Below are positions 13,935 to 57,924 of a DNA stretch of 64,000 nucleotides, piece after piece; position 1 is the stretch's first letter, and the number at the start of each line of letters is the position of its first letter. The notes under the pieces are model-generated. The model saw only the letters and a program-made list of their open reading frames with translations. It searched no databases and had not been told where the DNA came from. This DNA comes from Blattamonas nauphoetae (lineage: Eukaryota; Preaxostyla; Oxymonadida): assembly GCA_033064195.1 (NCBI GenBank), contig JARBJD010000011.1, positions 1-64,000 of the forward strand. Reading direction: 5' to 3'. The position numbers and the translations under genes were made by a program.

Positions 13935-13940
13935 CTATAA

Positions 13941-15617: not shown

Positions 15618-15623
15618 GATGAA

Positions 15624-15635: not shown

Positions 15636-15648
15636 GTTTAAAACAGCA

Positions 15649-16963: not shown

Positions 16964-17034
16964 TTATGTTTGCTCTTTCATTGAAATTAAAAAAGACAAA
17001 AATCGCCGTTGAGTAGTTCTTGTTCATGTTCGTG

Positions 17035-18580: not shown

Positions 18581-19215
18581 ATACTTCAACTTTTTGGAAA
18601 TTTTGAATTTTTGAATTTTTGTATTTTTGAATTTTTTGAATTTTTTGAATTTTTGAATTTTTGAAATTTTCCTAAGTATTTTTTTTTTGAAATTTTTTTG
18701 AATTTTGAATTTTTTAAATTTTTGAAATTATTTTGGCATTTTGAAACTTTTTCATTTTTTTTGAAATTAAGATTGCCCCTCGCCTGAATCGAACCACCCT
18801 CTAGAAACGGGTGGACATGGAACATACCCACTGAGCTACTAGCTCCTGAAAATGTTAGTTTCGACCTGTGCTTTATATCTCGAATGTTCAGATCTGCTAT
18901 ATATTCCTTTTATCGTCTACCTATCTACCCTCCTTAAAAAACATGACTTTATCACGGGAATGACTTTTTTACCCTCGTTAAAAAGCACGACTTTTTCTCG
19001 TCAGCGATTTTTTCAAAATTAGTTAGATTTTCCGTTTTAACATTTTCCCCCCGTTAAAAAGCATGCCTTTTTCACGGGAGCGATCTGCTAAATCTTAATT
19101 CTTGGCCACTTGTTACCCTCGTTAAAAAGCATGACTTTTTCACGGGAGCGATTTTGCTATATATTGAATTTATTGACAAAGTTTTCAAATTTTAAATCTG
19201 CTATAGTGTCTTTTT
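17432..19215 (-). repeat. Polinton right terminal inverted repeat
   Basis: Reverse-complement copy of 1-1663. It is about 120 bp longer because it holds more of the outer direct repeats with the CACGGGAGCG core (18940-19150). The outer end is at or just beyond 19215; a tRNA-like sequence starts about 40 bp further on. Confidence 0.93.
18775..18847 (-). other. tRNA-like segment in the Polinton right TIR
   Basis: Mirror copy of the left-TIR tRNA-like segment. On the minus strand it has TAGCTCAGTGGG, the CCACCC hairpin and GGTTCGATTC, which fit RNA polymerase III A and B boxes. The acceptor arms do not pair. Confidence 0.5.
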
Positions 19216-25960: not shown

Positions 25961-26120
25961 GATATGAAATGTTATTGGATTAATCACGCCTCTTTCCAGT
26001 ATTGTAGGATTTCTCTGTTCTCTTCCTTCTCCCTTCCCTTTTCCGTCTCTCCTTGTTCTATCTTCTCCACCTCAATCTCTTCATTTGCGAACGTGGAGAT
26101 GATTGCATTGATTCTTCAGC

Positions 26121-35935: not shown

Positions 35936-36829
35936 GAGTGAGGATTTGGAGAATTAGTCACTTTGGGTTGATCAATCCGACACTCTTAAAAAGAAGCGTT
36001 AAAGAACCTCTTGGATTGACAAGTTGGGAAAGATCGGTGACGATTGAAATCCGTCAACATTCTGCCCTGGAGTCGATTAATCCACCACTGAAATTCATCA
36101 AGGCCAGATACTTCCTAACGAAAATGATTTATGTTATACACCGCGCCTGAAGACAAGGTGGAACCATGAAATAGAACAGTCCTGAACAAACGCCCAATAG
36201 AAGCGACTCCCACGTGAATCAGAGAGAATTCTATGATGGAAGAAGCTCTGAAAGCATTCATATATTCACCTCACCCAATTTCAGGTGCTAAAAATTACTC
36301 CGGTTTTTCAAAACAAGAAACTGCTGTCAAATTTGTCAATTTTTTAGCACAGGTATTTCTCAACACGTTCTTTTCCCACATATTAATCCCATATCTCACT
36401 ATTTCATGTTTTCAATGTATACTGGCGTGACCGGGGTGACCGGGTCACTTTTGGCCAAAAAGTGGTGACCGTCAGTGACCGTGAGTTTTTCAATTATGGG
36501 TGAGATCTGATCAAGCTATTCCCGAAGATCTCCAAAAATGGCTTTCAACGGCATGAAATTCAGTGATTGAAGAGAATTTGAGTAAAATGGCATTTCTTTC
36601 TCCCAATACTCACGAAAGAGGAACCGTACTCTCTCATTTTTTCATGAGGATGGTGAGCAGAAAAAGACTGGTTTGATCGAGCCAAAGTTTTGAAAGTGGG
36701 TCACTACAGATAAATGATTCATTAGACAAACATTAATAGGTGCTGTCGAGTGAAATGGTCACCTTTAGCTCATGAAAAATAGATTCAATCCTCTTCTCAT
36801 CCATTTCTTCCGAACTCTCCCTCCTCATT

Positions 36830-38883
36830 CCCTCTTTCGTCTTCTTCCTCCTCCGTTATCTTCTTCTCTCTCCATTTCTTCCTGTATGTGGAGAGCGTTG
36901 TTTTCAGACAAATCGTCGTCTTTCTGAGTCTTGTTTCCGAACAGAGTCACTCTCCTCTCCCCCTTCTTTCTTCTCTCCTTCGTTCCTATCCTCGTTGTAG
37001 TCTTCTCCATCGCTCTCAGAACTCTCTTTCTCAAATTCCCTTGTTTTCACTTGTTCCTCGTTGGATGTGGCATTTTTTTCGTTTTCTTCATGTTCGTGTT
37101 CGCTCTCCTCAATGTCTTTCTCTTTCTCCACTTCTGTCTCTTTTTCGGTGTCTTTCACTTCCTGTTCATTCATGTTCTCTTCTTCTCCAATCTCTCCTTC
37201 CCGTTCTTCCTCTTTCCCTTCCTCTTTCTCCCCATTCTCAACTTCTTCCTATTCAATCTCTTTCATAATCTCTTCCTCTCCTTCCAACACTTCTTCCCCA
37301 TCTCTACTCACATCTTCCTCCACATATTCAATCTCCTCAATTTCTTCGTTTTCTCCTTCCTCTTCTTCCCCTTTTGCTTCTGTTGCACCTTTTTCTTCGT
37401 CTTCTGCGTCACCTTCACCAAATTCTGCTTCAGCATCATTCACCTCATCGACTTCGATCATTTCTTCCTCTTTTCCCTCGTTCTTTCCTCAGTGTCTCCT
37501 TGATCGGGTTGTGAAACGTCTTTCGTGAGCAGTTCGTGGTTTTCTTCATTATCCTGCAGATAGGCAGTATTAGCCTTTTTTATCATCTTCATTTTCGTTT
37601 TCCTCCCCATTTAGGTCGGTCTTGTCGTTCTGGGGGGAAGGAGGAAACAACAGAGTTTTGATCTCACCCTCCTCATTGTTTCCAGCTTCTCCTGTTCACC
37701 CCTCCGCTAACTCATCATTTCCACCTTCCTCATCAGATACTTCGCTTTTTCCTTCCATCACACCGTCCTTTTCACCAATATCTTGATCGGCAGGATCGAG
37801 TGATTGGATATCATCTAGTTGGTTGTCTTCGTCCTTCATGTTCATTTCAATGTCTGAAATTTCCTCATTTTCATCGTTTTCTGCACCTTCATCAGTCTTG
37901 TCCTCTTCTGATTCTTCAGCCTTTCTATCCCCAAACTCATCCGGCACTTCCCGTTCAAATGTGCGTGTGCAAACCACCTCGTCAGCTTCTGCGTCCTTCT
38001 CTTCATCGATGTTCCCCTCAGCTTCAATTTCATCTTCTTTTATTGCTTCTTCATCGCGGTCAGATGCGTCGTCTTGTCCATCTGGTTCTTCATCATCGCA
38101 TTCTTCTTTCCCTTCATTGTTCTCCTGTATCTCCACACCGCCCTTCAATTCAGCATCCACGTCTTCTTTTTCATCATTTCCATCCTCGGCGGCTTCTCCC
38201 TTAGCGTCATCCAATTCCTCCTCCATTTCTTTCCCTTCCTCATCATCTTCTTGTTTATCAGCTTCGATTTTTCCTTCAGCATCATCCTCATGTTCTTCGG
38301 GGTGAGTATCGTTGTCATCGTCGTTGTCCACATCGATCTGTTTCGTCGATTCATCGTGTGTCAATTCCACTTCCGATTCTTCGTCGAATTGCTCAATATA
38401 TCCACCTTCCTGCTCCCCACCTTCACAATTTACTTGTTCTCCATCAGATATTGCCATGTTTCCGTTATCATTATCTTCTGGTTGTATCGACTGTTCTGGA
38501 TCGATTTCTCCTTTATCTTCAGCTTCTTCTTCGTCGACATTTTGATCCTCCTCCAATTCTCCGTGTTCAGACTCGCTCATCCTGCTTTCAAATCAGTCTA
38601 CTCCCAATTCTTCATTGTCACATCCAGCGTCCAAACAACTGTTCTCGTCGTCTGGTTCACTGACAGAGTCAGCACCACCATCCTGTCCCTCCACTTCTCC
38701 AGCATCTTCAAGGGCATTCGCAACGTCTTCAGACATCTCTTCCTCAAATCGATCATTGTACACGTTGTCTTCTTTCTCTTCGTTCTTATCTTCCGCTGGT
38801 TCCTCATTGTTGTCTTCTTCGCAGTCTCAGCTTGAATACCTATCTTCGACCTGACCAGAAGTGTTGTCTAAATCTACAGTCAT
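36830..38883 (-). pseudogene. Acidic Glu/Asp-rich protein gene (cargo of A)
   Basis: The minus strand codes for a very acidic low-complexity protein in several frames: a start at 38883 (MTVDLDNTSGQVEDRYSS), then EEMSEDVANALEDAGEVEGQ near 38700-38760, a 294-residue block at 37696-38580, and further blocks at 37249-37461 and 36904-37173. In-frame stops and frame changes separate them. LDNTSGQVED and EDAGEVEGQ vaguely recall the acid tail of midasin, but no MIDAS domain follows, so I do not name it. Coding on the strand is supported mainly by the consistent E/D composition; the plus strand is pyrimidine-rich accordingly. Confidence 0.5.
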
Positions 38884-39401
38884 TCACACACCATGGATTT
38901 GTGAAGAGAGGAGATTAAAACTGGGATCAAGACGAAAGAATTGAATAGAGACGGAAAAAAATCTGCAGGACGTGATGAAACGACGGTGAAGATGATAAGA
39001 CTGGTGAAGCACACCTTGTTGATGTGTTGTTGGCATCATGAAAGATTTCGGACATGGGCGAACGTTGACTCTGGGTAGATCACAACCGTTTTAAACCTTC
39101 TGACAGTTTCATCTTCTTACCCATGTTAAGGATGTGCAACGGACGGACAAAACCTCGTTCTCATCGGACATCGGACAGAGACCTTGTCCAAGGTGAAAAA
39201 AAGTGATTCCTCAGGCATCAGTGGGGCTTGCTTGTTCGCAACTCCGAACAATTTTTGAATTATGGTTTCCTCAATTCACTTCGTTTTCGTTGCTAACTGA
39301 AAAATGAGATAAACTTCGTCCCGATTTCACGTTTAACCCAAAATTTTACGTCTCATTCACAAAGATCGTTCTTTCACCCTCTTTTCACCGAGTAAAGTTG
39401 A

Positions 39402-42400
39402 TAGTGCCCGGATAAACCCGCACAAAATACATAAACCCGCACAAATTCTAGTTTTGAGAAATCAAGTTGAAATAATTGCACTGATCTTGAAATTTGCATT
39501 TTTATCTCACCACATCACATATTAAATCTGTTGGTATCACTATTTTTTTAATGGTTGTGATCAAGATTGGATTCCACAAAAAAGCGTCTCACGAGATTGA
39601 TATTTCATGAAATGAAAAATACAATTCAGATAATATAGTAGCAATTGTGATTACAAGGAGTTGACGCCATTTGCATCACACGGTGAGCGAGTGGGTTTCC
39701 CTCTTGCAATGGTAGCCGAGAGCCAGCAGGATGGTCTGGAACTCAATGGTGAGAGGCTTGTGCGTGGGCAAGTTGCAGAGTGTGAGTGTGGTGTCAATAT
39801 GGGAGTTGGATGGTTCATATCTTGCTGATAATTAGCTTTGTGGTTGTGGAAGGCATTGAAAACTAATGAAACAGGAGCTGAAAGAAGAATAATAGAAGTG
39901 AGAGAAGATTGACAAGAACGTTGAAACAAAAGAAAGATTGAATGGAATGAAGAGGAAGGCGAGTATATTGACAAACCGAATGGCCTTGTCATCGAATGTG
40001 TATCATGTGTCATCCGTTCAGTGTGCTCCGTCGACGTCTTCGGCTTGGATTTCATCAGATCGAGGTTGATGTCCTCCTCGAATTTCCGCTCTGCGCAACA
40101 TGTCAGCCTGGGATCCTGTGTTCATAGGGAAAGACTGGATGTTGAGTCGACACAAGTGACTGTGTCATCTTGAGCGGGCATGGCCTCATCAGCTGTCCTG
40201 AGATGGAGAGGACGGGATGATGAACAATAGTTGAGTGGTGAAAGGAGACTACAAACTGATTCATCGATAAACAGAATTGTGATCTGACTTCAGAACATGA
40301 TCATCCCACTTGCACCATTGCCTTTGATCCTTTCGAGAAAGCCTGGTTCTTCCCGTTATCTATCTGGAAAGATGAGGAGAAGAAAAGCACTCATCAAATT
40401 CCATCGAATGCTGAGCTGACGAGGATTTCATGAGTGGTACTGCGCTCAGGTAGAGAAGACACTTGGCGTTGATTATCCTGTTTATGTGTGTGGAAAAACT
40501 TGAGAGAGAATGAAGTTGTTTCTCACATTCTCCGCCAGACACAGCTCCACAATCGAAACTGCCAGTCTCGACTCCATCGCCTGCTGTCGCTTCACAAAAC
40601 TCTCTGCAAGTTAAGTCGGATTGGTAGCGACATAGCACAATGACGTGTCGAGATCCAACAGAGTGTGGATGTCTTACGGGTTGGGCTCACACGGATATCG
40701 GTAAACCCCGCTGTTCTTCCCAAAACGATCACTGTTGACAACTACGTAGCGGAAGGAGACTCCATCCATCTCTTCGATCCCGATGTGGGCGGAATGCTTC
40801 CTTCCGTGGAACTTCACAACGGTCCGCTTTCGGAGCAAGACAGCGTGCTGAGAGCGAGTGAATGCGATTCCATTGGTCTGGGATGCGGTGAATAGTAGAG
40901 ACGAGATCCACTGGAGGATCTTCTGTTGGATGCGGAGCTGTTCGATGTCCTTAATCTGGCTGGGCCTGCCTTATGTCGTCGTTGCGGAGGTACGTGATGA
41001 GGAGGAGATGAAGTTTGAACGAGTCGGTTCGTGTTTTGAGGGCCTTCCACTGTTCGATGTGTCCACAACCTGTCTTTCATTGTTTGAGATCTGTGTTGAA
41101 GCGATGCGCGGCGTCATCCATTCCTTTCGCGTTGAGGTCGTTGAACTGCCCAGTTTTCCAGTGATCCCACAATCTCTGCCTTTCCGCCTTCTGCCCCCAA
41201 CCCAAACAACTTGAAGTCGACCATGCGAACCCCCTGCTGTGCAATGAACTGCTTGTAAGCTTGGAACTTGGAGGGCGGGGAACTCGGTGTATGTTTCGAA
41301 TCTGTTCATAGAACGAGAGTTGCTGCGAACTTGCGTGCTCCGGATCGTCGGGCTGGTGTTCTGAGCTGATTCGATAGACTTGGTGTCGTTGTCTTCTTCG
41401 TTTTCGGTGAAGATACGAGGGAAGGCTTGTGCATTCATGATTACCTCTTCTCACGTCGAACACAATCTTCGTCAAGTTATTGATCACTGGATTCCACTCA
41501 GTCTTCTGTCCAGTGAGGATGGCGTTTCACGGAGAGAAGAAGGGCTTCGAGGACCAAAGAGAGAATCAGTTTGAGGCATTCGTTGAAAAGAGTGAACGCG
41601 TTTTGGAGCAAGTCTTGCAGTCTGGAACAATGGCAAGAGTCGATGAAGATGAGTGGAATGCGGGCGAGGCACATGATGATCATCTCCACGCATGTTTATC
41701 TGCCTCTTTGAAGCCGAGACCAGCTTCAGCACATTCGAGCACATCTTGTGAGCATTTGAGCAGAATGTGAGGGTGCTGGGAGCGAGGAGCAGCTCGTTCT
41801 CATATGCTTCGACACAGTCGACCACCCTCGAAGAATCTGTTGTGATCCCCTCTCTGTTGCGTGGTCGAACACGATGACGATCGTTCCAACTGCGTTCTCT
41901 TCAACAATCTCCATCTTCTCTTTCCGTCGATGATGAAAGGGTCAGGTTGGACGAGACACCTTTCTGGATGCTAATTTGGGGTGCATTGCAAACTATGAGA
42001 GGTCAGAGTTAAGCACAACTTCGGGAGTGTCAGACTCTTGACACGGAACTTTTCCACCTGTCTGAAGATGCACAGATCCTCTTCACTTCCGTCTTCAGAG
42101 TGAGGTCATTCAGGAGCGGTATCATCTCGCCAATGTGTGTGATGACAAAGTTCACAACGTGGAGGACAGTCTGGATCAGCTTGATGCACGTGCCGTGGTT
42201 CAAATTGCGTCCCATTCCTTCACTTTTGGCGTCCACTTCAATCACCGTTCTGTCGTTGTCGTTCGTTTCGTATTCGCTGTCTTTTGCTTTCATTAGCAAC
42301 TTCTTGTCGAGAGGGCTCTCTTTGATGGCTTTCTCATTCTTGCCCGGCTTCTGGCCTTCCATTACCTGTGTGACAGTCAAACTGGCGTCGTCCATCCGCA

Positions 42401-44469
42401 TTCCTTTTGTAGCTGGATCGGTGTAGCCGCGAGGCATGAACATCGCCAGAGACAGAAGGAGAGATGGGTTGCTATCAGCAGTGGCTGTCAAAACGGATCC
42501 TCGTCTTGGATGACTTGGAGAAGACTGAGAACTGGAGCGATTCGGACTCCCGTCAGCATCGATCCTGTCTCCACCATCAATCCAATGTTATTTGGACGGA
42601 TGACAACCGATGCGCAAACGTCTGAGAGATTTGCTGTGATGAGTGTCTTGCTAGTCTTTGCGGAGTGACCTGACTTGGCAATGCCACAAGAAACAGAGTT
42701 GATACGGATGTCGAGTTGTGGGAGGTGAGCTTCGAGAGCAAGAGACGTGACGAAGAAGGCGAGGAGTCTCTTTCGAGCTATGAAGGTGTTGAGGTTTCTC
42801 TTTTCTTCTCTTTTCAACTGATTCGAGAGCTCCTTCTTGTCTTTCTCCTGATCCTGGTCAGCTGGTCCTGCCAAACAACATGCCTCCATCATCTTCAGAA
42901 TCACCGGAATCATGCGAAGGGCTTCCTTGAGAAGAGGGACGAGAATTGTCATGAGATCTCGCAGCCCACCCTCCGCGATGTTCACAAAGCTGCACTCACA
43001 TCGACTCTCAGTGTGGTCCTTGGAGAGTACTTGTTCATCAGCTCGTTTCTGATCGCGTCTTCCAATACTCGCATCTTTGCCACGGCAAGTGCGATCTTCG
43101 CTGCTGTCTCGAAGCGAAGTTCCTCTTCATATGAAGTGGAGATGATGATGAGCGGGATGATGACAGAGATTGAGTCGATGAATGAGCTTGTCGGGACAGT
43201 ATTCTCGTCCTCTCGATGAACCCACGCGGAGAACTGGCTTGTTGTGACGATGCTGGTTCCGGTCAACTGGACGGTCAGAAGCTGAATGTCTGACTTGTTC
43301 GGCAGCACGTGGTGGTCATGTTTGGTTGGGCCATCGTTCCTGGTACGCCAGTGTCACACAACTTGGTGTGGACAGAGAATAGCAGATCGGTAAACTCACA
43401 CACGACGGTGTTGACCAACTCTCCGCCCAAATCTGATGTGATGAGGGAGTCGATGGGGATTCGCATGCTGCCAGCCTTCCCGCCGAGTGTCATGACAGGA
43501 GGAAGGAAGGATGTTACACTCGATCTGTCACTCGCTGTCCGTTTCTCACTTCTGGCTATTCTACGCCGAATGGATGGTCAAGCATGTCTAACTTATCGAC
43601 TCCAGAATGCACATGGACAGATGGGATCGACTTGTTGAAGAGGGAGTTGGCGAGCTTAATTATGTGCAATATGAGAGAGAAGAGTTCCTTTGGACAAACA
43701 ATCCCAGCGTACAGATTCTTGCGATGGCAGAGCAGTGTGACAGTGATTCCCTCGTTCATCACTATCTGGTTGTCCTTGCTATCCAATTTTCGCAGTCCCT
43801 CGTCGAATTGGGTGTGCATTTCTGGATACCGAGATAGTATTGTTGCAATTGAGCGATTCAGAGTGGAATTGATTCTTTTCTGGTTGGGAGTAAGATTCGC
43901 GAGATGCTCGGCGAAATTCAAAATAGAACGATTATCGTCGTTCACGCCCATAAAGCAATCAATCATATGCATCCGCATGTTCATTACGTCCGCTCCAAGT
44001 GATAGGTTAAGTTTTCCTTTCGACATTGCGAGTGAAAGTTTGGTGTCTGGAGCTCCGAGACAAGAATGATGGAATGAGATTGCAAGCGAAATTGTAGTTG
44101 GTGTAAGAAGTGGAAGGTAGTCGACAGCGTTATCTGAAAAGTTCGATCAAGAGCTGCGTTTTGTTCAGCGATCTTGGATTGTGTCTGAGAGCTAGGATGG
44201 CGGGTTCAGCAAGTTCTCGCGTTGTCTGGTGTGAGTGAAAGTTGTGAGGAGGAGGTGTTGAATGTGATAGAGCACAGTTTATCATTCTTCAAGTGTTCTG
44301 CACAAATGTGACCCACTTTTTGATTTTGAACTGACTCCCTTTTAATCAATTTGGAGTAACTAGTTCTAAAAAGTGAAAAAATGAAATGGAAGGAATTAAT
44401 CCATAAAGATGATCAACATTTTGGATTTTGTGCGGGTTTATGGATAAAAGCGGGTTTATCCGGTGACTA
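39402..44469. repeat. Nested inverted repeat pair in B (inner)
   Basis: Arms carry TAGT..CCGGATAAACCCGC plus a second ATAAACCCGCACAAA unit, at 39402-39450 and 44420-44469. A mariner-type MITE sits directly against the right end. No matching target duplication found, even after allowing for the MITE. Confidence 0.6.
39651..44200 (-). pseudogene. Large multi-frame gene (cargo of B), family not recognised
   Basis: Minus-strand coding in several frames with sensible protein: LGADVMNMRMHMIDCFMGVN (near 43960), SVIIPLIIISTSYEEELRFE (near 43150), RKRLLAFFVTSLALEAHLPQ (near 42740), LLLSLAMFMPRGYTDPATKG (near 42440), KFQAYKQFIAQQGVRMVDFK (near 41230) and LLRKRTVVKFHGRKHSAHIG (near 40810). Alternating short hydrophobic strands recall bridge-like lipid-transfer (VPS13-type) proteins, weakly. 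Some breaks may be introns; one possible acceptor (CATTAG on the minus strand) is near 39865. Others look like frameshifts. Confidence 0.45.
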
Positions 44470-44792
44470 CAGGGTGAGCCAAAAGTAACCTTCATCCCAC
44501 AATTGTGTTTTTATGTCATCTTTTCGAAAACAAACATCAAATAGAGATCGTTGTCGCTATACTGTTTGCTCACCACCTCATTCACTGATTTCTTTCTAAT
44601 CAACTTCAGTGCAGTGTACGAATGAAGTCAGATCGTTCGCATGTCCCGATTTCTGACAAAAAACGAACGAGAATTCAGTTAAGCTTTAATGATCACTCTC
44701 TTCATATTTCACGTCTTGAAACTCTCTTTTTTAACTTTTGTCGAAAAAGGCTTTGATCGGCCCCTAGAGAAGGTTACTTTTGGCTCACCCTG
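44470..44792. mobile_element. Mariner-type MITE (323 bp)
   Basis: Ends CAGGGTGAGCCAAAAGTAAC and the inverse over 23 bp, flanked by TA on both sides (44468-44469, 44793-44794). Non-coding. Related in end sequence to the MITE at 56989-57343. Confidence 0.88.
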
Positions 44793-45669
44793 TATGAGGA
44801 ACAGGTGAGACTTGTCAGAACTTTGGATCCCAGGAGACATATCCACTTTAACCTGGACTGTCTAATCATAATCCGTGGTCATGTCATGGAGTCCCAATCA
44901 ACGTGGTGACCAAAACAGACTTTTCATCCCTTAATTCTGTTTCACTTCAAGATCCTTATTCAAAGAACCGAGAAATACGGATCATCGTCACAATATCGTT
45001 TGCCTACCACCTCTCAAAAACGATTTTTTTTCCATATAGGTATTTCACAGTTTGAGATAGCACTTCATGATTTGAGATATTATTGAGGGTTTTGATCCAA
45101 ACCATAATTCAAGACTTGTTCGGAGTTACGAACAAGCAGATCCCACTGATAAATCAATGTTCAATCATCCAATTTCTTTCTTTAAATGGACCAAAATCCC
45201 ATAAATTGCTGAAATGTCCACGGTGGTCCGAGCTTGGACATCCGCTCATTTATTGAAAAAAAGAATCGCCTGAATTTCTTCACAAGTTATGATGTTAAGT
45301 TGTCCTGTCCTCCTCACTTTCTGTCCGTCCTCCTCTTTTTCTTGTCCGATTCTGAAATTGAAAGAAAATTGAAAATTTTGGATATTTCCAGTGATAAAAG
45401 TGCATTTTAGGATCGAATTTGGCTTGATTTTGCAAAAAACGTGAAAATCAACGAAGTCGATCCAACAAATCACATTGAGGGTTGATCACGGATCGAATCT
45501 TCTCGAATACTTTTGTTTCCGATGAAATGTTGCGAAATACAGAATACGAAAGAAGTTAGAAGGAAGTGGACGGAGTAGTGATGAAACAAGCACTCTTCTT
45601 CGCCTTCACACAACTACCTCAGGTTGGGTCGGAACAAATGGAAGAAAATGAGTGAAGATACTGCGGAAT

Positions 45670-48600
45670 TCATCCGGTTAGCGTAGAAAACCCGAGGGAA
45701 CAGCTTGACGTTGGCGAAATTTGATTTGAAATGAAGTGAGAGATGAAGCAATCGATATATTTAGAATTGAGTGTGTGAATGGGAGTGAACGCGCGATCGT
45801 GGAGAGGAGGGAATGTGCGATCGTGGAGAGCAGGGACGCGCGATCGTGTAGAGGAGGGAGTGTGAGATCGTGGAGAGGAGGGACGCGCGATCGTGTAGAG
45901 GAGGGAGTGTGCGATCGTGGAGAGCAGGGAGTGCGCGATCGTGGAGAGGAGGGAGTGTGCGATCGTGGAGAGGAGGGAGTGTGCGATCGAGTAGAGCAGG
46001 GAGTGTGCGATCGTGGAGAGGAGGGAGTGTGCGATCGTGGAGAGCAGGGAGTGTGAGATCGTGGAGAGGAGGGAGTGCGATCGTGGAGAGCAGGGAGTGC
46101 GCGATCGTGGAGAGCAGGGAGTGTGCGATCGTGGAGAGCAGGGAGTGTGAGATCGTGGAGAGCAGGGAGTGTGAGATCGTGGAGAGCAGGGAGTGTGAGA
46201 TCGTGGAGAGGAGGGAGTATGCGATCGTGGAGAGCAGGGAGTGTGAGATCGTGGAGAGGAGGGAGTATGCGATCGTGGAGAGCAGGGAGTGTGCGATCGT
46301 GGAGAGCAGGGAGTGTGAGATCGTGGAGAGCAGGGAGTGCGCGATCGTGGAGAGCAGGGAGTGCGCGATCGTGGAGAGCAGGGAGTGTGCGATCGTGGAG
46401 AGCAGGGAGTGTGAGATCGTGGAGAGGAGGTGCGATCGTGGAGAGCAGGGAGTGTGCGATCGTGGAGAGCAGGGAGTGTGCGATCGTGGAGAGCAGGGAG
46501 TGTGAGATCGTGGAGAGGAGGGAGTGTGCGATCGTGGAGAGCAGGGAGTGCGCGATCGTGGAGAGGAGGGAGTGCGATCGTGGAGAGGAGTATGCGATCG
46601 TGGAGAGGAGTGTGCGATCGAGTAGAGCAGGGAGTGTGCGATCGTGGAGAGCAGGGAGTGCGCGATCGTGGAGAGGAGGGTGCGATCGTGGAGAGGAGTA
46701 TGCGATCGTGGAGAGGAGTGTGCGATCGAGTAGAGCAGGGAGTGTGCGATCGTGGAGGAGGGAGTGTGCGATCGTGGAGAGCAGGGTGCGATCGTGGAGA
46801 GCAGGAGTGTGAGATCGTGGAGAGGAGGAGTGTGCGATCGTGGAGAGCAGGGAGTGTGCGATCGTGGAGAGCAGGGAGTGATCGTGGAGAGGAGTATGCG
46901 ATCGTGGAGAGCAGGGAGTGTGCGATCGTGGAGAGCAGGAGTGTGCGATCGTGGAGAGCAGGGAGTGTGCGATCGTGGAGAGCAGAGATCGTGGAGAGGA
47001 GGGAGTGCGCGATCGTGGAGAGCAGGAGTGCGATCGTGGAGAGGAGGGAGTGCGATCGTGGAGAGGAGGGAGTGTGCGATCGAGTAGAGTGAGGCGCGAT
47101 CGTGAGGAGGGAGTGCGATCGTGGAGGAGGGAGTGTGCGATCGTGGAGAGCAGGGACGCGCGATCGTAGAGGAGGGAGTGTGAGATCGTGGAGAGGAGGG
47201 ACGCGCGATCGTGGAGAGGAGGGAGTGTGCGATCGTGGAGAGCAGGGAGTGCGCGATCGTGGAGAGGAGGGAGTGTGCGATCGAGGAGAGGAGGGACGGA
47301 AGATCGTGGAGAGGAGGGAGTGTGCGATCGTGGAGAGCAGGGAGTGCGCGATCGTGGAGAGGAGGGACGGAAGATCGTGAAGAGGAGGGAGCGTTCGTGT
47401 AGAGCAGGGAGTGTGCGATCGTGGAAACAAGGAGTGCGCGATCGTGGAGATGAGGGACGGAAGATCGTGAAGAGGAGGGACGGAAGATCGTGGAGAGGAG
47501 GGAGTGTGCGATCGTGGAGAGGAGGGAGTGCGCGATCGTGGAGATGAGGGACGGAAGATCGTGAAGAGGAGGGAGTGTGCGATCGTGTAGAGCAGGGACG
47601 GGAGATCGTGGAGAGTGAAAGTTCCTGTCGGCATTCCGAGTCCACTCTGAGTGTATCTCACGTAGTCAGGACTACTGTGTCGAGAGTGGTTGTGAAGCGC
47701 GTCAGTGATGGCCTGTCCGGTGAAGTGAACGACAGTACCATCAGAACGAGGTGATTGGGATAAGGTGACCACTGTTGAGGGTGAGGACGCATGTTGAGAG
47801 GAATATTGAATGAGTTGATGATTGAATCGAAGGATCGACGATGAATTCGTCGGATGTGCACTTCACTGAGAGCAGATTGTGTGTCAAGCTCTGGAAAATC
47901 GAAGATGAGGAAGCGAGAAAAGGGGTGGCGATCATCCTTCCTTCGACGGCCGATTCTGCGAATCTCTGAAGAGTCGCTGTGGCCTCGTCGAGAAGATTAT
48001 ACAAGATCCTGCTGGTGATGGCGTTTTGTGTTGGATGAGGGATCAGCGTACTGTCCAGTCTGTCCTCGTCAACGATCAGGTAATTCTCGGCAATTGTCGT
48101 GGAGTCACAGTTCGTGATTCTTGTTGCGAACAACGACGAGCACCCTGGGTTCTGGAGCACGAACTCCATCCCTTTGAAGAGTCGATTCCTCTGAATATCA
48201 CGCTGTCCAGAACGAGCCCGGAGCTGTCTGCGAGGCGCATGGCACAACTCACCTCGCCTTCAGAGGGAGGACGGCAGCAGTCCATGAAGAGTATGAGGCA
48301 GAGACTGGCTGGAAAACCGAGCCTGAGATGGAAAGAGAGGAAGGGCCGGAGAGTGTCGCACTTCCATCAAACTGCGCTGAACACGCCATGAACAAACAGC
48401 GACTGAACGTGATGTGGTTTTGAACGATGCCGTTGATTTCTGGATGATTCTGTTGAAGGAGGCGGCAAAGGGGTGAAGGAGACGTTCGAGCAGACGAGGG
48501 ATTCTCCGTTGTTGAGTCCACACACCCTGTTCCACTAAGTTGGTTCGAGCTCATTGTGTCAGGAGGCGGGAAGAGAGGAGAGATGAGTCAACTGTGAGTT

Positions 48601-49734
48601 GAGTCGGTACGACTTGATTCTGTTCTGTCGAAAGTGTCCTGGGGAGAGGAGAGGACCAGTTCCAAGAACGAGGCTGGTGACGTGAATGAGGAGACCGGAG
48701 CAGCTGACAGAAGCTGCACTGTTTATCTCAGAGCAGGGTGGTTGGGCGGAGGAGAATTTGCGGATTGGGGAAAAGGCAATCAGTGGAAGGAGTGTCCGAA
48801 GTTCACTCGATCTGGGAACAACGTCAATGAAAGAAATTGAACATCCATCGTTCACCTCAGAACAGACAAGCATAAATGGGGAACATGCAGGATTTGAGAT
48901 GATCATGCTTGACGAAATGACCACGTTGGAGTTCGAGAGTTGTCCGTTCGAAAGAAACATCCCTCGACAATCAATTATCATCCATGAAACATAAATCGAA
49001 CAATTTGAGAAGATAAATATGAATTTGATCGTTTCTTCATGGTAGTTTGCTTTGTTTTTCCACGTCCGAGATTCATGTTGACGAGCTTCGTCCACCAACC
49101 ATGTAGAATAGATTCTTGTTTCTTTTCCTCGAAGATTCATCGTCGTTGATGAGACTAGGTACTGATGCGCATGATATTTATCGTATTTTAAATCGAGTAT
49201 GCGGTGAAATCCGTCTTGATCGCCATTTTCTCGTGTCGGCTTCTCTTCAATCGCAAGTCAGAGCAGAATGATGAAATATCGTCAGAGTCGCACTTGGTGG
49301 TTTGTTTCGGAAGTTGATCGAGAAAAAGTGAGTCATCCGCCTAATCATCGGAGGCTGGTTGTAAATTGGCTGCCCACGTTCGTTCCGCAATTCTTTGCAT
49401 GAATAAGACCCGCTCAACACATCATTTCCCGTGTGTACGATGAGGGAATCTGTTTCATTCTGTGGCAGTAGCCTATTTTCGGAGAGCGGCACGTTCAGAT
49501 CCTCCTTCCGTTTGGCTTCGATACAGTTCTCGATTGTGAGTGAGTCGGAGATTGTGTCAAATCTGAAGAGGTGATTGGTTCCTTCAAATCACGTTCTGAC
49601 AAAGAGAAAGGCGGAGTTATGGACAGTGTCGGGAACGGGATGTCCTTGAAGTTCTCCGTGTTGTTCGGAAGAACAGAGGAGGTATGTGGTTCGGCTAATT
49701 GATGAAAATGAGTATAGAAACAATAAAGATGCAT
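45670..49734 (-). pseudogene. Surface-protein-like gene with 8-residue repeats (cargo of B)
   Basis: Minus-strand coding in several frames: SLIVHTGNDVLSGSYSCKEL (49350-49460), CRGMFLSNGQLSNSNVVISS (near 49000), SRCLFMACSAQFDGSATLSG (near 48370), then SAVEGRMIATPFLAS and DGTVVHFTGQAITDALHNHS (near 47720), leading into the 24-bp repeat array. The short Ser/Gly/Cys-rich strands look like the right-handed beta-helix surface proteins common in some protists; that is a resemblance only. Frames change at four or more points between 49734 and 47640. The array continues open to 45670 on this strand. Confidence 0.45.
45785..47620. repeat. 24-bp minisatellite, about 75 copies
   Basis: Unit GAGCAGGGAGTGTGCGATCG plus TGGA, with variants. 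Each unit holds GCGATCG, so the CGATCG palindrome recurs about every 24 bp. Since 24 is a multiple of 3, most frames stay open across the array: LHDRTLPA and LSTIAHSL on the minus strand, ECAIVESR and VRSWRAGS on the plus. Irregular unit lengths from about 46430 on suggest repeated slippage. Which strand, if any, is translated cannot be judged from openness. Confidence 0.92.
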
Positions 49735-50083
49735 ACTGATGTTGGGAGTTTTTCCTATTTCATTTCTTTCTGTTTATTTCAGATTGTTACACGATCAAGT
49801 CATCTATGTCGGATAAATGATGAGAAACATGGGAAGAAGAGGGTAATAACAGCGGAGATACATACTGATGGAGTGATTTTTCACCAGATTAATTCGATAC
49901 GATATCAATGACAAGAAGAAGAGGAGTCAATTCTGGGTCAAGTGGTTTTTCACGAATTTGGATTCAACACAGACAAAATTGATTTAGAACCCGACAATAG
50001 AAGGGTTGAATGTAGAACGGAAGTCAAATTGCGGAATGAGAGGTCCTGAAAGAAAAGAGATGACGAAGACAACTCATCGTGGG

Positions 50084-50249
50084 GAAGAGGATCGGGACAA
50101 ATCGGACATGTCCGATTTGTCCGATTTGTCCTCTTTTGAGATAAGTGCAGAAGTTGGATGAACTAATTGAGAGAAAGTTCCAGTGTGAATATAAGGTGCT
50201 TGTCCGATTTGTCCTCCTCTTTGTCCTCTCTTGGGCCGATCGTCCTCTA
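50084..50249. repeat. GGACA-type short inverted repeat element
   Basis: Left AGAGGATCGGGACAAATCGG, right the inverse type (CCGATTTGTCCTCC ... GCCGATCGTCCTC); an AAATCGGACATGTCCGATTT palindrome lies at the left. Similar words recur at 45290-45345, 50552-50698, 59461-59510 and 62300-62362. The AACTCCTAATTAGGAGTT palindrome lies just right. Otherwise 49850-51430 shows no gene I can support. Confidence 0.5.
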
Positions 50250-50551
50250 AACTCCTAATTAGGAGTTTAGGAGACAGAGCCCCTACGGCTCGTGATTCAC
50301 CACCAAACTGATTTTCACACATATTAACGCCCTTTTTAATGTCATACGATGGATATGATCGAATATTGAAGGATCAAGTCTGCTATATAGTCAGAAAATT
50401 CCATGAAAAAAGTGCGGGGTGAAGAAACTTCTTTTCAGACATTTTGAAGCATTCTCTGGCATTGAACAGGTCCGAATAGAGACAAAGAGTGTTTGAAGAA
50501 CAGAGAGAAGGTGAATTCAGATGAAATGGAGGAAAACAAAGCTGATTTTCC

Positions 50552-50698
50552 GAGGAGGACAGGACCCCTGTCCTCTGTCAAGATTTTGTCCTTCGTCCGT
50601 CCTCTTAACATCATAATTCACAAGTTTATAGCGATCAGTTGAAAACGGACAAAACGGTCCAGTCCTGGACATGTCCGGATCGTCCTCCCCATCTTTAT
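50552..50698. repeat. GGACA-type short inverted repeat element 2
   Basis: Left CGAGGAGGACAGGACCCCTG, right GGACATGTCCGGATCGTCCT. Same word family as 50084-50249. Non-coding. Confidence 0.45.
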
Positions 50699-51529
50699 TT
50701 GCTTTCGTCGTCCATTTTCTCTCAGAACCTCTTAAATCGCAATTTGAATTCACTTGTCGGTTCAAGCATTCTATTGTCCTGCTTCACATCATTCTTGTCT
50801 CAAGTGAATCCTAATTCATGGAAATAGGTGCAGCCATCAAAAGCCGTTTCTCCTCACAATGTATGACATCATAAAGGAATAATGTTTGAAAAAATCTCAT
50901 CATTAGTGTGTATCTCCATTGTTTTTTACACGTTATCGATCTCATTCTCTTCATTAGTGTGACATGGATATCACTATCAAACCGCAACCTGTTAAGGACA
51001 GAAAGAGAAGAGATAAGGACAACTCACACCATCAGTATTCATCTCCCTTGTTATTCCAGCTCTTTCCGAACCATTGGACGTCAGCTAGAACGTGTCCAAC
51101 CTATTCAGAGGCGCAATTGTTGGTGATTCAGTACTATTCGATCATTGTGGGTATTGCGTCCATCATTCAACCAATTAACTGTTTTATCCATGATTTTGCC
51201 CTTCAGTTATTTCTCTTTCCCTTTCTTCATCATGTGTTCATCCATCCAACCAGTCAATCATGACGAGATTGCTCCGATCGAAACTCTGCGGTTTCCATAG
51301 ACCAAAACGACACATTAATGCACAGGAGGAGGGTACCGATTTCATCGTGGTAATACGTTCAAACCTATGAGATATATGATAAACATGATGAAGTTGAACT
51401 CTCTCAGCCAGGAGCTCTCATCAACACCCTTCATGTTTGTGTACCCACATTTTCGTGATAATCATGATCCCAATATCGAAATATTTGTTCATTCTTTCAG
51501 ACATCAGGTCTTCTAATCACCCCATCACA

Positions 51530-53780
51530 GCTGAACCATCTCCTCAACTATCTTCCTTCTCCCATTCCTCTCTCGTCGTTTCTCGCCCTGGCTGGTCTTT
51601 GCACTGTTTATCCCTTCAAAGGGCAGAGCAAAGGAATATTCCAGCAGTCGAATCAAGTCGTGTGGGATGGTGTCATCATCACAGACGAAGGCCAGGCCAT
51701 GAAAGTGCTTGAAAGGCAATGGCAGAAGGAGAAGGAGGAACGAAGAATTGTTGGTTTGGTATTTTATGGTCATTTATCTTTTTTTCTTCGCTTTTGTCGC
51801 TATCGTTCGATTCGTACCATCACACATCGTTTTGCTTCCTCTCTCCACATCAGACAATCCTGAAGAAATGAAAATACTCCGACGACGATGGAAGGACCCA
51901 CATTTTCCTGGCCGTGTTGAAGGTAACAAGGGAATCAAAATCAAGGAAGTCGAAAACGACTGAAAAGAAAGAGGTGAACGAGAGAGACGACAAGAAGAGA
52001 AAAAACTGGAAAGAGAAGCGACAATGCCCATTCAAACACTTCAGCTGTCCTACCTACTCAACTTGCTGAAGACCCTGCAAAGCGACAAGATGGATATTTC
52101 TGAACTAAAGCAAGCCATGCTGACGACAAGCGCGGGTGAGAAGGGGATGGTCTTTGATTACTATTCGAAGGAAGCATTGGAGCGGGAGGGGCAGGTGGAA
52201 GAGGTGAAGGAGGAGAAAGAAGACAACACCAAACCGAAAGAACTTGCTACCGAGATGGAGAAGGAGAAGAAGAAGCGAGAGTTTGGTTCACGTGGATGAG
52301 GAGAAGGAGAACGGAGGGAAAGATGGAGGCGATGTACTCGAAGAGAAGAACGTCCTGCGGATCGGCTCTGAGCGGGGGATTGTCTCCAAGCCGCGTGGCA
52401 ACCACGGAAAGCTCAAAATGACTGGGTGCTCCATCGCACGAGGGGCACTCGCACGAAAAGGGTGACGAGGGAACCGATCGATGCTGGACGAGGAAATCGA
52501 GGATCTTGTGTGGCAGGAGGAGACCACAATGTACGGTGAAGTCATCTCCGCCCAACGCCTCTTCGAGATCACCTGACAGAGCAAGAAGGGTGTGCTGCTC
52601 AAGTCCCTCCAGCAGAATAGCCACATTAGCACCCACTCCGCCTCGTCCCACTTTGCATCGATGCTCAACAACAAAGCCGCCCGATCCGCTCAGCCAGCTA
52701 CAACATCCTGTCGTCCACGTTGCAGTGGCCGTCAATTCGTTCATGCACCTCTTCGACGCCAACACAGGCAAGCAGAACGGAGAGTACGACATGGGCAACA
52801 TTGTCACTGCTCTCGTCATCGAAGATCGGCAGCGGAAGTTGCATTTCGGAACGATCGACGGAGAGGTACGTGTGTACAAGTTCAACAACGGTGCAGTGAT
52901 GAAAGAAAGACAGAACAGACGTTGAGCGGGAGATGGATGCAATGTCCCCGTCCTCAATCCAATCACAAGCTCGTATCCTCTCGTCAGAATCTCTGTCCTT
53001 CACAACCTCCCAATTTCGGTTTATTCTGGAGAAGCAGAGGAATAGAAGGAGTGAAGCAGAAGGAGAGGTTGGAAAGTTAAACGCATCAAGACGAGCTGGA
53101 CGACCTGAAGCAGATGCCAAACTTGGACGCTGACGATCGCGACGAGATGACACTCATCGCTCGCTAGAAGAGGCACTCCGACACAATCGCCTCGCTCGAG
53201 TACATCCCTCTCTCACATCCCATCCTTCGCGCACGCCTGATTCGAGCTCACTTGGAAGCAGACTCATCTGACGCTCTGCACTCCGTCGGATGGAGGACGC
53301 ACTGTCAACGTGCCACGTTCACTACAATCACTCATCTCGCACCACTCGAGCACCTCCTTCCGATCAACCTTGTCCCGACGAAAGACAATGCAACTCAACA
53401 ACCTGACCAAAAACATCATTAACGAGGACGTATCCGATCCCTTCATTGGTCCAATCAAGATGTTTGGACGCCTTATGAAGTGTCTGGTGAATATCCACAG
53501 TGTCATCGGTTGCGTGAAGCGACCCAGATTCGATGAGACGGGGTGTTGGAGATATGTGACAGAGAGAGGGGCAAATACTCTTGTTTCCTCGTGTTGATAT
53601 CCTCGATCGGCGAGAGATGGACAAGAAGGGGGAGCTGCAGAAGATGGGCTCACTCTGATCCGACAGAACCGCCAACAAGTCCGAAAATGAGTAGTTACTC
53701 GCTGTACTCATTCGTTTCATTGTCATTTCAACATATCGTTTCGATCCTCCCCATTTTCAAAACTTACGAGTTACGACTTC
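51530..53780 (+). pseudogene. WD40-like gene in pieces (cargo of B)
   Basis: Plus-strand coding in several frames. First piece near 51580-51760: ALAGLCTVYPFKGQSKGIFQ then ITDEGQAMKVLERQWQKEKE. A charged piece follows (52024-52299, SYLLNLLKTLQSDKMDISEL, then a Glu/Lys helix). Near 52710-52915 comes VVHVAVAVNSFMHLFDANTG and LHFGTIDGEVRVYKFNNGAV, which matches the D..tG, (S/T)..DG.I.V pattern of WD40 blades. A further piece at 53310-53600 is helical. Breaks may be introns or frameshifts. Only part of a propeller is visible. Confidence 0.45.
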
Positions 53781-53787
53781 CTAATTA

Positions 53788-53813
53788 GGCGCTGTCCAAC
53801 CTTGGACAGCGCC
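53788..53813. other. Perfect hairpin near the right end of B
   Basis: GGCGCTGTCCAA, CC, TTGGACAGCGCC: 12-bp arms with a 2-base loop, 30 bp inside B's right end and followed by more GGACA words. It could be a subterminal transposase-binding or folding site. Confidence 0.6.
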
Positions 53814-54224
53814 TAGCTTGGACCGGACAACTGCACATCCCTAACCTAGGGATGGGCAGCGGTCGGTCCGACTGCTCGTCGACCGACCGACTGGTTTTTT
53901 CTGATGATCAACCCTTTTTCACGAAAATAGGATGGTGTTTTCTTGAGAATCCTTCATGGTCATTCTCTAGGGACTGTTTCCTGGATCTTCATGTTAATTG
54001 AGTGGAATAAGTTCTATTTTAATCCGAGAGACATGCAGTTTTGATAATTCTGCGTGGAAAATGGGAAGATCATTTCGATGAAGAGAACTAGCTTCAATAT
54101 CACGGACTTTTATGAGAAGGAGTGAAGTGAGAGATGAAAGCGTCAAAGAAAAGGGACAACAAGATTAATTTGTTCGAACAACACTTGTCAGCGCGGTCAC
54201 TCTTCTTTCTATTGGCTTCTTCAA

Positions 54225-55064
54225 TCATCCTATGTCATTCTCCCTTTCCCACCTTTTTCTCACTGCTTCTCTTTTGTCTCCTTCCCTTTTCCTTTTCAGT
54301 TCCGCTTGATGATCGTTCGTTTTTCTGTTCACCACACATTTGCTGTAATTCAAACTTCTTCGTCCACTTTGCTTTTTCTTTGCTTCCTGAATGAACCTGC
54401 TCCTTCCTCTGTCTTGGTTGATCCATTCTTCTGTCCATCCATTTCCCTCTTTTTCTTGTGTTCTACAGTTCATTGCCTTCTTTCAATGATCTCTCTTCCT
54501 GCTTTCTTTCTCCATCGTTCGTCACTTCCACATGACAGTCTCACCTTCTTCCCTCAGATCTTCGGTTGTTTCCTGATGAGACCACTTTTCCTGCGTCACA
54601 TGGTGAAGATCGTCCTTTGTCAGTATGTCCTCTCCTTTTGGTAGTTTCCTCCAATTTATGTGTTGTCTTCGCTCTTCTGTTTCAAGATGTGTCTTCCTCA
54701 TCGTGTCATCTTGCGATTGCTTGTGATGCTCTGAACTTTGAGATCTTCTCATGTCTCCTGTCTGATTAGCTCGATAAGTGCTTCCAATTCGTCTGATCGA
54801 TGAAACGAACGATTTAGTTCTTCCACTTATCCTTTTCGGTTTCCCTTCTTTTCTTCCCCTTCTTTCTTTCTATGGTGATCCTTTGGAGATCGGCTGAATC
54901 TTGCCATAGATTGTCCCAATATTCTCGCAATGTACGATCTGATCACTCGTACTCATGCTCTGTCTCCCTTTTCCTTCAGTTTTTCGTTTCAGTTCTCTTC
55001 TAGTGGCCATTTTTGTCGACACTTTATCCGTTGTCTGTATTCTGTTTCTCTTCTTCAGCATTCA
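54225..55064 (-). pseudogene. Basic, charged gene remnant (cargo of C)
   Basis: The minus strand is purine-rich with Lys/Arg/Glu-rich frames: KVSTKMATRRELKRKTEGKG (54870-55061), EELNRSFHRSDELEALIELI (near 54800), RKTHLETEERRQHINWRKLP (54522-54752) and ELKRKREGDKREAVRKRWER (54225-54473). These pieces are in more than one frame. The 437-bp MITE at 55065 interrupts the 5' side. Family not recognised. Confidence 0.3.
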
Positions 55065-55501
55065 GGCAATAAGTAACTTTAAGGGACTGGTCAAATACCG
55101 ATTCTAAGAGGATATTCTAGAGATTTTCTAGGAAATTCGAAGCCTTTGTGGAAGTAGAGAACAGATAATTGAGTTTTCTCTAGAAATAAAAGAGTTGGAA
55201 ATGTGTTGATCAAAAAAGTGAAGTGTCTGGTTCTCTGTCGTTAGGACATAAATTAGGATTTAGTGACCACCTAGTCACTCAAAAATAGATTATTCAACTT
55301 TCTAGGGGAGCTAAAAAGTTCTGATGAACTTCCATTTCAGATTAGAGGTTTTGATCCGACCCTAAATTTTATTGTTTCTTCAAAGGAGGCGATCTTTCTC
55401 CTGAATCCTAGTGACATATCTCTATGAAGAAAACATGCCTCGGAATGCTTTTAGGACTACTAGAGTTAGTTTTAGTCAGTCCCTTAAAGTAACCTATTGC
55501 C
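55065..55501. mobile_element. hAT-like MITE (437 bp) inside C
   Basis: Ends GGCAATAAG.TAACTTTAAGG and the inverse, with AGCATTCA on both sides (55057-55064, 55502-55509): a perfect 8-bp duplication. Non-coding. Confidence 0.9.
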
Positions 55502-55547
55502 AGCATTCATCCCTTCGTTGATGGGTTTCCTTTATTTTTGAATCTCC

Positions 55548-56352
55548 GTGCTGTATATGTTCATTTGGTCAGGTTGTATCATGTCCTTTGTGATATCCAT
55601 CGTGGATCATTTGATCCTTCTGACCATTCGCTCCTGTGAGGAGAAAAAGTTGGTTAAAAAGGAAGGCATACGAGTGATGATCGTTTTAAACTGCACTGGA
55701 GTGAGAGAGAAGGGCAACTATATGAATGTTGAGAAGAAGTTCACCAAAGATGTTGAGGGAGCTGAGGATGTGAAATGAAGAAGAATTAAAGAAATGAAAC
55801 GAGGAAGAACAATTGAAGAAGGATAGATGAAACAATGAGGTGAAGATACATACATAGAGTTCCAAATATTCAGAGAACAGCATCAGAGTTCTTGTTCTGG
55901 AAAGATCCTTGATGTCTGCTCATCGTTGGTGTCAATAGAGCACTATCTTGCATGTCAGACATTGACTACTTATGTAATTTGGGTTTCAACTTGTTTCTCT
56001 ACCGATTCGTTCAATCGGAGTTGAATTGGTTTGTTTTTTTGAGTGTTTTGACCATTCCATGTTGAAAGGAGAAATGAATCAGAATGAGGACGTGAGAGAA
56101 ACGATCTGTTGGTTTTGTGCTACAAGAAAAGAGAAGTTTTTCGATGAAGAAGGGAAGATGAGAAAAATTGGTGAAAAAAAGAAGAGAGATGAGGATGAAT
56201 GGGACAAGATGGATCTGACATGCAATGACGTGAAGAAGCACACTTCTTCATCCAAAGTTTCACAGAACAGCGCCAGCATCAAAACGTATGACAGATTCTT
56301 GTGCGAAGTCAGAATCAACGCTGTGATGACCGAGGAAAGCGAGAGAAATTGA
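55548..56352 (+). pseudogene. Charged hypothetical frames in C
   Basis: Two plus-strand frames, 55548-55778 (IVDHLILLTIRSCEEKKLVK) and 56026-56352 (RKEKFFDEEGKMRKIGEKKK). The second is highly charged with a few aromatic residues. Neither shows a family motif. Adjacent 56610-56760 resembles 49690-49850 in B (both with a TTTCATTTC...TTCAGA pyrimidine tract before GATAAATGATGAGAAA), so B and C share a diverged repeat or paralogous gene piece with an intron-like boundary. Confidence 0.25.
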
Positions 56353-56988
56353 ATCCTGGAAAGAGTGGAGTGTAAAGAGTAGAATGAAGGAAATGGACGA
56401 ACAATAGGATAAGATCAAACAGATTTTGTAGAAGAAAGTCACAGTCTTTATCTTCCTTCATCTTCATCTCTTCATCTTCATTTCGCTCTTCATTCCAACT
56501 GGATATGTTCTCCTCTGGAGAAATCTTCCAGCAATTTATTCGTTATCTCCGTCATTTTGACCAGTTCCAATTTCACATCGACTTCTGGCTCAAGTCGCAG
56601 ATTATGAGGAGACAGAGGGTGATAAGAGTGGAAAAACAATAGGGATGCAAACCGATGTTGTGAATTGTCTTTATTTCATTTCATTCTCTCGACTTCAGAG
56701 TTGGGCTTGATCAAGACATGTTTTGCTGATAAATGATGAGAAAGAGTTTGGTAAGGATGAAATAGAAATTAAACACCAGTTTTCTTTCATTTGGATCTAT
56801 AGCAAAGCAGTCAGAACAAAAAGGAAGAGTCGGGGTCGGTCGGACAGGCCGATTTTTTGTCCGATGTTGGGGAAGGACAGACCGACTCAGGGACTCTTGA
56901 ACTACGACCTCTGAAACGATAATTTCGTGAAAAATGAGATGAACTAATTGTAGTGATGATGTGAATCAAAATTGAGAAAAAGAGAATA

Positions 56989-57343
56989 CAGGGTGGCCCA
57001 GAAGTAGTCTAACCGTATGGGTCGATCACTTTTCTTCGAACATGTGCAATTGACGTCAATCGACTTTCTCTTCTTTCCTATGCTTCTAAATTTCCCTTCT
57101 TTTCATTTCACAAGTGCTTCCTCGACTGTAGTCTCAATGGATCTCATGAAACGGGACTGACTCCATTTTTTGAACACTCCTTTCTTGAGCTGACAAGGAT
57201 TGTTGATCAACGAAACAGTGGTGAAATGAAAAGAAGTTAAATTTAGAAGCATTGTAATGAGGAGAAAGACGATTGGTGTCAACGGATTTTGTTCGACAAG
57301 AAGTGATCGACCCATACGGTTAGACTACTTCTGGGCCACCCTG
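56989..57343. mobile_element. Mariner-type MITE (355 bp) inside C
   Basis: Ends CAGGGTGGCCCAGAAGTAGT and the inverse over about 45 bp, flanked by TA (56987-56988, 57344-57345). Non-coding inside. Confidence 0.92.
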
Positions 57344-57349
57344 TAATAA

Positions 57350-57425
57350 AGTGTCCCTGACGGGATTCGATCCTGGGTCCGGGGAGCAAAAAGCTGGTGT
57401 GCTACCGCTCGACTAAAGGGCACTT
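57350..57425 (-). tRNA. tRNA-like sequence, possibly a Lys(UUU) relic
   Basis: Minus strand AGTGCCC ... GGGACACT gives an acceptor stem with one bulge; a D-arm-like TAGTCGAGCGGTAGCA, a CTTTTTG loop in the anticodon position and a GGATCGAATCC B-box follow. The anticodon stem is poor, so a degraded tRNA or tRNA-derived piece is likely. It abuts the mariner-type MITE. Confidence 0.45.
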
Positions 57426-57924
57426 CAAAAAAGTCGCCGACTGTTTTATTTTTAGGGACTGGACTCGATGTTTTCAGACCGACCACTGCCCATGCCTACC
57501 CTAACCCATGTTTTTGTTTGTATTAAGATCTTGCTGTAATGCATTCAACCATATTTCTGAGTGATGTATTGATCTGACCCTTAGAAGAAAAGTGGGGTGA
57601 CACTGACCGACCCAAAAGGCTCGGTCACGCCAGTATATTTCAATGATGCTTACCATAATTTCTTTGTCATAAATCTTCAATATTAGTGTCTATAACCAAA
57701 GTGAGATGATTGTCAAAAAAAACCAATCTTGGGTTGATCATGATCAGAATCATCTCGAATACTTTTTCACGATCAAATGTCACAAAAGAAATAGAACTGA
57801 ACAAATCATGTGTGTTTGGATAGAATTGAGATCAAGTGAATACATAATTGGGGTTGAAAATGAACAATTGGTTGGGGTGAGGATCGTTCTCAATTCTGGC
57901 TCATTAGATATTTCTTGAGAAAAG

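Follow-up and report, generated by a model that had tools for sequence, protein, structure and literature searches.

The window analysed here is a 64,000-nucleotide stretch of the Blattamonas nauphoetae genome (C13:1-64000), and all genome-wide searches were carried out in an assembly of 88.3 Mb and 837 contigs; the published assembly, built from Nanopore and Illumina data, is described in sections of the genome paper as comprising 88.5 Mb and 879 contigs, a contig number that differs from that of the genome searched (PMC10703272). Between positions 36418 and 57637 the window holds a nest of nine elements, three of them (A, B and C) with hAT-like ends, whose parts sum to 21,220 of 21,220 bases by base count with nothing left over.

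Architecture of the nest

The outermost element, A, is flanked by the 8-bp target duplication TTTCAATG (36410-36417 and 57638-57645), carries the terminus TATACTGGCGTGACCG as an inverted pair at 36418 and 57637, and lies on the forward strand in two parts (36418-39126 and 57512-57637); its end family and its end-to-end alignment with a sibling (L064) mark it as a hAT-type non-autonomous element. Inserted in A is B, with the duplication ACCCATGT at 39119-39126 and 57504-57511 and the termini TAAGGATGTGCA at 39127 and TAGGGATGTGCA at 53843. B consists of three forward-strand pieces, namely its left end (39127-39216), a second piece that lacks 68 bp present in the copy on C76 (45151-45286), and a third that includes the right end (50617-53843) and is copied at C76:22114-24653 (100%) and C76:24633-25336 (99%). 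The third hAT-type non-autonomous element, C (53847-57498, +), has the end TAGGSATGGGCAG at 53847 and 57498 and the duplication CCCTAACC at 53839-53846 and 57499-57506. Because this target of C is made up of the last 5 bp of B and 3 bp of B's duplication, the right octamer of B is intact at 57504-57511, where it overlaps C's duplication by 3 bp. The first-pass annotation had considered B's duplication readable only after removal of C; it is in fact directly legible, and what C conceals is its adjacency to B's right terminus.

Two small elements lie within C, namely m2 (55064-55500, +; 437 bp), with a duplication of 7-8 bp (AGCATTC/CAGCATTC), and m3 (56989-57343, +; 355 bp), with a TA duplication. 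Four further insertions, D, E, F and m1, are contained in B and were absent from the first-pass annotation, which had described three nested hAT-ended elements; all three end pairs and their 8-bp duplications were confirmed, and the nest is deeper than described. D, an inverted-repeat element of ~543 bp with an AT duplication, is present on the forward strand as a left part (39217-39403) and a right part together with AT (44793-45150). Between them lie F (39404-44467, +), a 5,064-bp element with a TA duplication and the ends GTSMCCGGATAAACCCGC that has the same limits and TA at C123, and, directly beside it, m1 (44470-44792, +), a small inverted-repeat element of 323 bp that also has a TA duplication. 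A placement of m1 'in the end of F' as an order of events was considered and dropped: at C124, F is abutted at this TA by a different element, which begins CAGGGTGA. E (45287-50616, +; 5,330 bp) is bounded by the 8-bp duplication TTCACAAG (45279-45286 and 50617-50624); a 24-bp minisatellite of ~80 copies occupies 45793-47615 within E, an element that itself has many near-identical copies.

Without later insertions, A, B and C in the window measure 2,835, 3,445 and 2,860 bp. They are elements of ordinary size (2.8, 3.4 and 2.9 kb), since the remaining insertions account for the rest of the 21,220 bases, and their earlier description as large does not hold. The proposed order of A, B, C and then the two small elements in C is borne out by the duplications and by siblings lacking B, C, m2 and m3. 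In the most probable full sequence of events, A entered the chromosome and B entered A, followed by D, E and C, in whatever order, into B, with C landing exactly across B's right junction; F and m1, in either order, inserted side by side into D, and m2 and m3 into C.

Outside the nest, the flanks hold two transposase frames, one DDE_3 (31877-32770, −; 2e-21) and one DDE_Tnp_4 (58239-59465, −; 2e-20), and a reverse transcriptase was found at 26112-27278 (5e-21). A Peptidase_S74 match lies at 16043-16963 (−; 1.6e-13), and the frames of positions 1-19000 read to us like a Maverick/Polinton-type element, five of the six frames scanned there being without a Pfam match.

End families, target duplications and empty sites

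The octamers of the window were counted and compared with their counts in 100 shuffles. TTTCAATG occurred nine times, a number reached in 65 of 100 shuffles, and ACCCATGT occurred twice, as 47 of 100 did, which makes each of them weak alone; CCCTAACC also occurred twice, a count reached in 5 of 100. The window octamers are thus weak by themselves, and it is the genome-wide pairing of ends with duplications that is decisive.

Genome-wide, the 16-bp end TATACTGGCGTGACCG gave 135 + 139 matches at two or fewer mismatches, compared with 9 + 11 for the reversed control. Left and right A-type ends diverge past 16 bp, and separate patterns for them matched the genome 71 times (left) and 195 times (right), with 0 matches for each reversed control. 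Among the ends used for pairing (68 of the 71 left ends and 91 of the first 100 right ends listed, out of 195 counted), 31 opposed pairs were found, of which 26 had identical octamers, one more matched at 7 of 8 positions, and five lacked a perfect duplication; a perfect duplication was present in three of six further A-type pairs and absent in the other three. The span was 1.2-3.1 kb in 27 of the 31 pairs, the window's A being the longest. An 8-bp duplication, shared inverted terminal repeats and a hAT transposase in the same-ended element L031 identify A as a member of the hAT superfamily. Over its full length, A without its inserts matches L064 (2,807 bp; 88%); L039 and L066 each align with it in two blocks (96-98%), and siblings free of the window's inserts measure 2.5-2.8 kb (L064, L037, L039, L040 and L066). 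In all seven A siblings compared, the insertion point of B is crossed without a gap, and these siblings therefore represent natural empty sites.

The C-end pattern matched the genome 409 times (control, 1), and the first 100 of these matches yielded 30 opposed pairs, the octamers being perfect in 27 and imperfect in three; when octamers were shuffled among the pairs, 0.96 were perfect on average. Inverted ends combined with the 8-bp duplication (27 of 30 pairs) would place C among hAT-type elements. In three blocks, C and its sibling L081 (2,853 bp) share an identity of 99.2% or more; L081 lacks m2 and m3. Three of the C pairs have one octamer in common and could stem from a single event. These C-type elements (C2:379909, C13:375071 and C165:38916) are preceded in two cases, at a distance of 2-4 kb, by B-type left ends with a single octamer, GTAATGAA, and could be copies of a unit of B with C or the product of segmental duplication.

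B-type ends are rarer in the genome than those of A. The window's B has a further copy (C76:22114-25624; 3.5 kb), which is flanked by CCGTCTTT on both sides and is without C, D and E, reading GGC-AT-AAATC at D's site and a single TTCACAAG at E's site. A relative of B at C220 (L080; 5.7 kb) is bounded by matching ends and by the duplication GTTCTCAT, so that an 8-bp duplication is found in three B-type copies, those of the window, C76 and C220. The termini of B and C (TARGGATG and TAGGSATG) resemble Ac-type TAGGGATG ends, and both elements share 8-bp duplications with Ac-like hAT elements; the TATACTGG ends of A are unlike the Ac type.

The inner elements recur as well, E and F with limits that are the same as here. 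D is found unsplit, without F and m1, at C25:145749-146271 (96% identical); F has at least seven further copies that extend beyond 5,000 bp and are 100% identical after rounding (40 of 518 candidates scored), and E at least 24, with at least 2,600 of the 2,967 bases searched at 97-100% identity (40 of 339 candidates scored). Further copies of the ends, for which the first-pass annotation had proposed a search, exist for A, C and, through the second B with its own duplication, for B. Empty sites, which it had also proposed to look for, were found as copies without B, C, D, E, F and the small elements, but A itself is known by its duplication.

A host gene-like fragment in B

Positions 52028-53635 (+) of B are collinear with C828:180830-177648 (minus strand) at 77-92% identity, with some stretches skipped. 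The frame on C828 is open over 1,864 aa (800 of 800 codons open in the part read); the copy in B is broken by two in-frame stops in the longest aligned piece, by frame shifts and by deletions. WD40-type/beta-propeller matches of both the B fragment and the C828 donor are weak and all below curated cut-offs, and the gene name is accordingly tentative; because the identity is only 77-92%, the actual donor may have been a paralogue of the C828 gene. B bearing the fragment was found at two sites, C13 and C76, which are 99-100% identical and have different duplications. With a host gene fragment between its ends, a parent elsewhere and mobilization together with the fragment, B is, judged by its sequence, a Pack-hAT with a decayed 1.6-kb fragment of a host WD40-like gene, present at two places. 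The fragment might have been captured through gap repair or template switching.

Interiors of A and of other A-type elements

A contains an acidic open-frame region (37195-38826, −) that is interrupted in the window (longest frame, 298 aa) and open over 526-529 aa in three siblings. Among 28 genome stretches matching the interior of A, 21 have a listed A-type end no more than 8 kb away and seven do not; the acidic region is also present, at ~70%, in GAC-type elements such as those at C35 and C220. A Pfam scan of the acidic frame returned no match. The frame was also considered as a gene under selection and rejected as such: dN/dS was 0.68-0.76 in three sibling pairs, compared with 0.70-0.72 after a shift of the frame by one, and with values so alike no coding constraint is shown for A. 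Of 500 sequences simulated at the same dinucleotide frequencies, 0 contained a frame as long as 526 codons, from which it follows that the acidic frame was probably coding once. On these comparisons, the 'cargo' of A appears to be family sequence without detectable coding constraint.

The 36 A-type elements form 11 groups by their interiors, so that loci with the same ends do differ inside. Of 180 stop-to-stop frames with a length of 88 aa or more, 116 were scanned (excluding acidic frames of L040, L053 and L063, the 32 shortest and some others), and five Pfam families were matched at E≤1e-3. A frame of L067 matched the DDE_1 transposase (Pfam). L041, which has the perfect duplication GACCGAGA, contains at 1447-1974 (+) a piece of a dynein motor (AAA_6, PF12774, 4e-6, over the cut-off), with a PDB match to a dynein heavy chain (E=4.8e-4). 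L036, with the perfect duplication AATTAAAA and a sibling elsewhere that is 97-98% identical (L032), contains at 2349-3005 (−) the start of a ubiquitin hydrolase (UCH, PF00443, 1.3e-6, over the cut-off). By domain match, both of these A-type elements hold host-like gene fragments. A 100-aa frame at L065:4434-4733 (+) that matched two kelch/beta-propeller models (E=9.6e-7, below the cut-offs) was not counted as a capture, because the duplication at its A-type ends is unconfirmed. Scans of 30 frames gave no Pfam match, and four frames of L081, the sibling of C, gave none at E≤1e-3. The earlier statement that all three elements carry gene-like cargo is thus upheld for B, through the C828 fragment, but not for A, which appears to hold family sequence, or for C, given the four L081 frames; likewise, the movement of gene pieces is supported for B by the fragment at two sites and unsupported for A and C.

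Probable transposases of elements that share the ends

The observation that none of the three elements shows a transposase is correct for the window copies, but of the same-ended elements L031 (A) encodes one and L080 (B) a hAT-like one. The hAT dimerisation family was matched at 61 genomic places (150 of 156 candidates scored). L031 has both A-type ends, the perfect duplication CTCTTTCT and an 895-codon frame that matches Dimer_Tnp_hAT (PF05699, E=4.9e-6, over the cut-off) and is listed in databases as hypothetical protein BLNAU_15546. Seven hAT places have one of the 91 A right ends no more than 10 kb away in the orientation seen in L031, where ~0.3 would be expected, and two are near such ends in the wrong orientation.

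The 916-codon frame of L080 (2551-5298, −) is hAT-like with a C-terminal OTU cysteine-protease domain; its OTU match is over the cut-off (E=5e-7) and its PF05699 match below (E=0.012), and in two homologues the hAT dimerisation match is likewise under Pfam's cut-off. A profile of L080 matched the A-family transposase (96.5%, E=8e-10) over 321 columns spanning conserved D, C..H and RW positions, which we take to be the hAT catalytic motifs; compared with PDB sequences, the B transposase profile matched no solved structure. Seven related database proteins were found, all from B. nauphoetae and six of them labelled OTU (8,000 candidates scored). The motifs TNGSCF and NHY are present in seven of eight aligned rows; the remaining row is another gene model for L080 itself. 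B differs from Ac-like hAT elements in the OTU domain on its presumed transposase. For C, no transposase partner was found, and 12 of the 61 hAT places (~3.2 kb each), scanned for C ends, had none. A candidate for the autonomous hAT with the same ends that the first reading proposed to look for is L031 in the case of A; for B the hAT match of L080 is sub-threshold, and for C none was found. A and B, and C by its ends and 8-bp duplications, are non-autonomous and would presumably depend on transposases supplied in trans by longer elements with the same ends, those of L031 and L080 acting on the ends of A and B.

Discussion

Taken together, the 21-kb interval is very probably a stack of nine DNA-transposon insertions in which A, B and C are non-autonomous hAT-type elements and B is a Pack-hAT. 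Their spans in the window (21.2, 14.7 and 3.7 kb) and the open frames inside them would also suit composite elements of large size, each with a cargo of host genes, but this is very improbable in view of the insert-free siblings, which measure 2.5-2.8 kb for A, 3.5 kb for B (C76) and 2.85 kb for C (L081), and of the bulk itself, which is mostly E and F, both recurring elsewhere. It is even harder to credit that the nest is an assembly artefact joining repeats. All its parts are indeed repeated sequence and the nest is known from the assembly alone; at eight of the nine insertions, however, duplications are accompanied by matching empty sites (F and m1 jointly), which misjoins would not be expected to produce, A having a duplication only.

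Within the stack of insertions, the WD40-like stretch could be viewed as a decayed accessory gene of the element, acquired without host capture, as it lies inside B and in two B copies. We regard this as unlikely, since the related copy on C828 is a long open frame and no B end was found on C828 among 52 and 89 listed genome matches; furthermore, the B sequence to the left and right of the fragment is matched by C195:46289-48882, the fragment itself being unmatched among the alignments reported (40 of 127 candidates scored). Capture of a host gene fragment by B is the reading retained here.

B as a Pack-hAT belongs to a known kind, Pack-hAT/Pack-TIR, as far as sections of the two reports describe it (PMC8903248, PMC8277862). 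Like the plant Pack-hAT/Pack-TYPE elements in those sections, B has hAT ends and 8-bp duplications, is non-autonomous and contains a gene fragment with a parental copy elsewhere; in contrast to them, it resides in an oxymonad and its fragment is decayed (PMC8903248). Among animal Pack-TIRs, 208 of 370 are hAT and few are multicopy according to the corresponding excerpts; B resembles them in having a fragment between hAT ends and several copies with distinct duplications, and differs in its lineage and in a capture of ~1.6 kb with internal deletions (PMC8277862). The literature searched, subscription papers aside, did not describe hAT or Pack elements from any oxymonad. Another oxymonad, Monocercomonoides exilis, has 3.72 Mb of DNA transposons, for which the sections available name no superfamily (PMC8767320), and 'transpos' is absent from the main text of the B. 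nauphoetae genome paper (PMC10703272). The transposase frames found here are hypothetical proteins in databases, and because they carry such labels, the 25,221 gene models of B. nauphoetae probably include transposon- and Pack-derived ones.

The least expected by-product of the analysis is the OTU domain on the presumed transposase of B. A hAT-OTU fusion, for which there was no report in the literature searched (subscription papers aside), is a testable oddity. It is conceivable, though we place it somewhat short of an even chance, that B. nauphoetae hosts a Pack-hAT system that is still active across the genome, several end families capturing host gene fragments that then decay and B being driven by a transposase that has gained a C-terminal OTU domain; if so, the OTU domain would perhaps strip ubiquitin from the transposase itself or from host silencing factors. 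The analysis gives a closed base-by-base account of the 21-kb nest and extends hAT-type gene-fragment capture, described in plants and animals, to an anaerobic, mitochondrion-less gut flagellate far removed from both.
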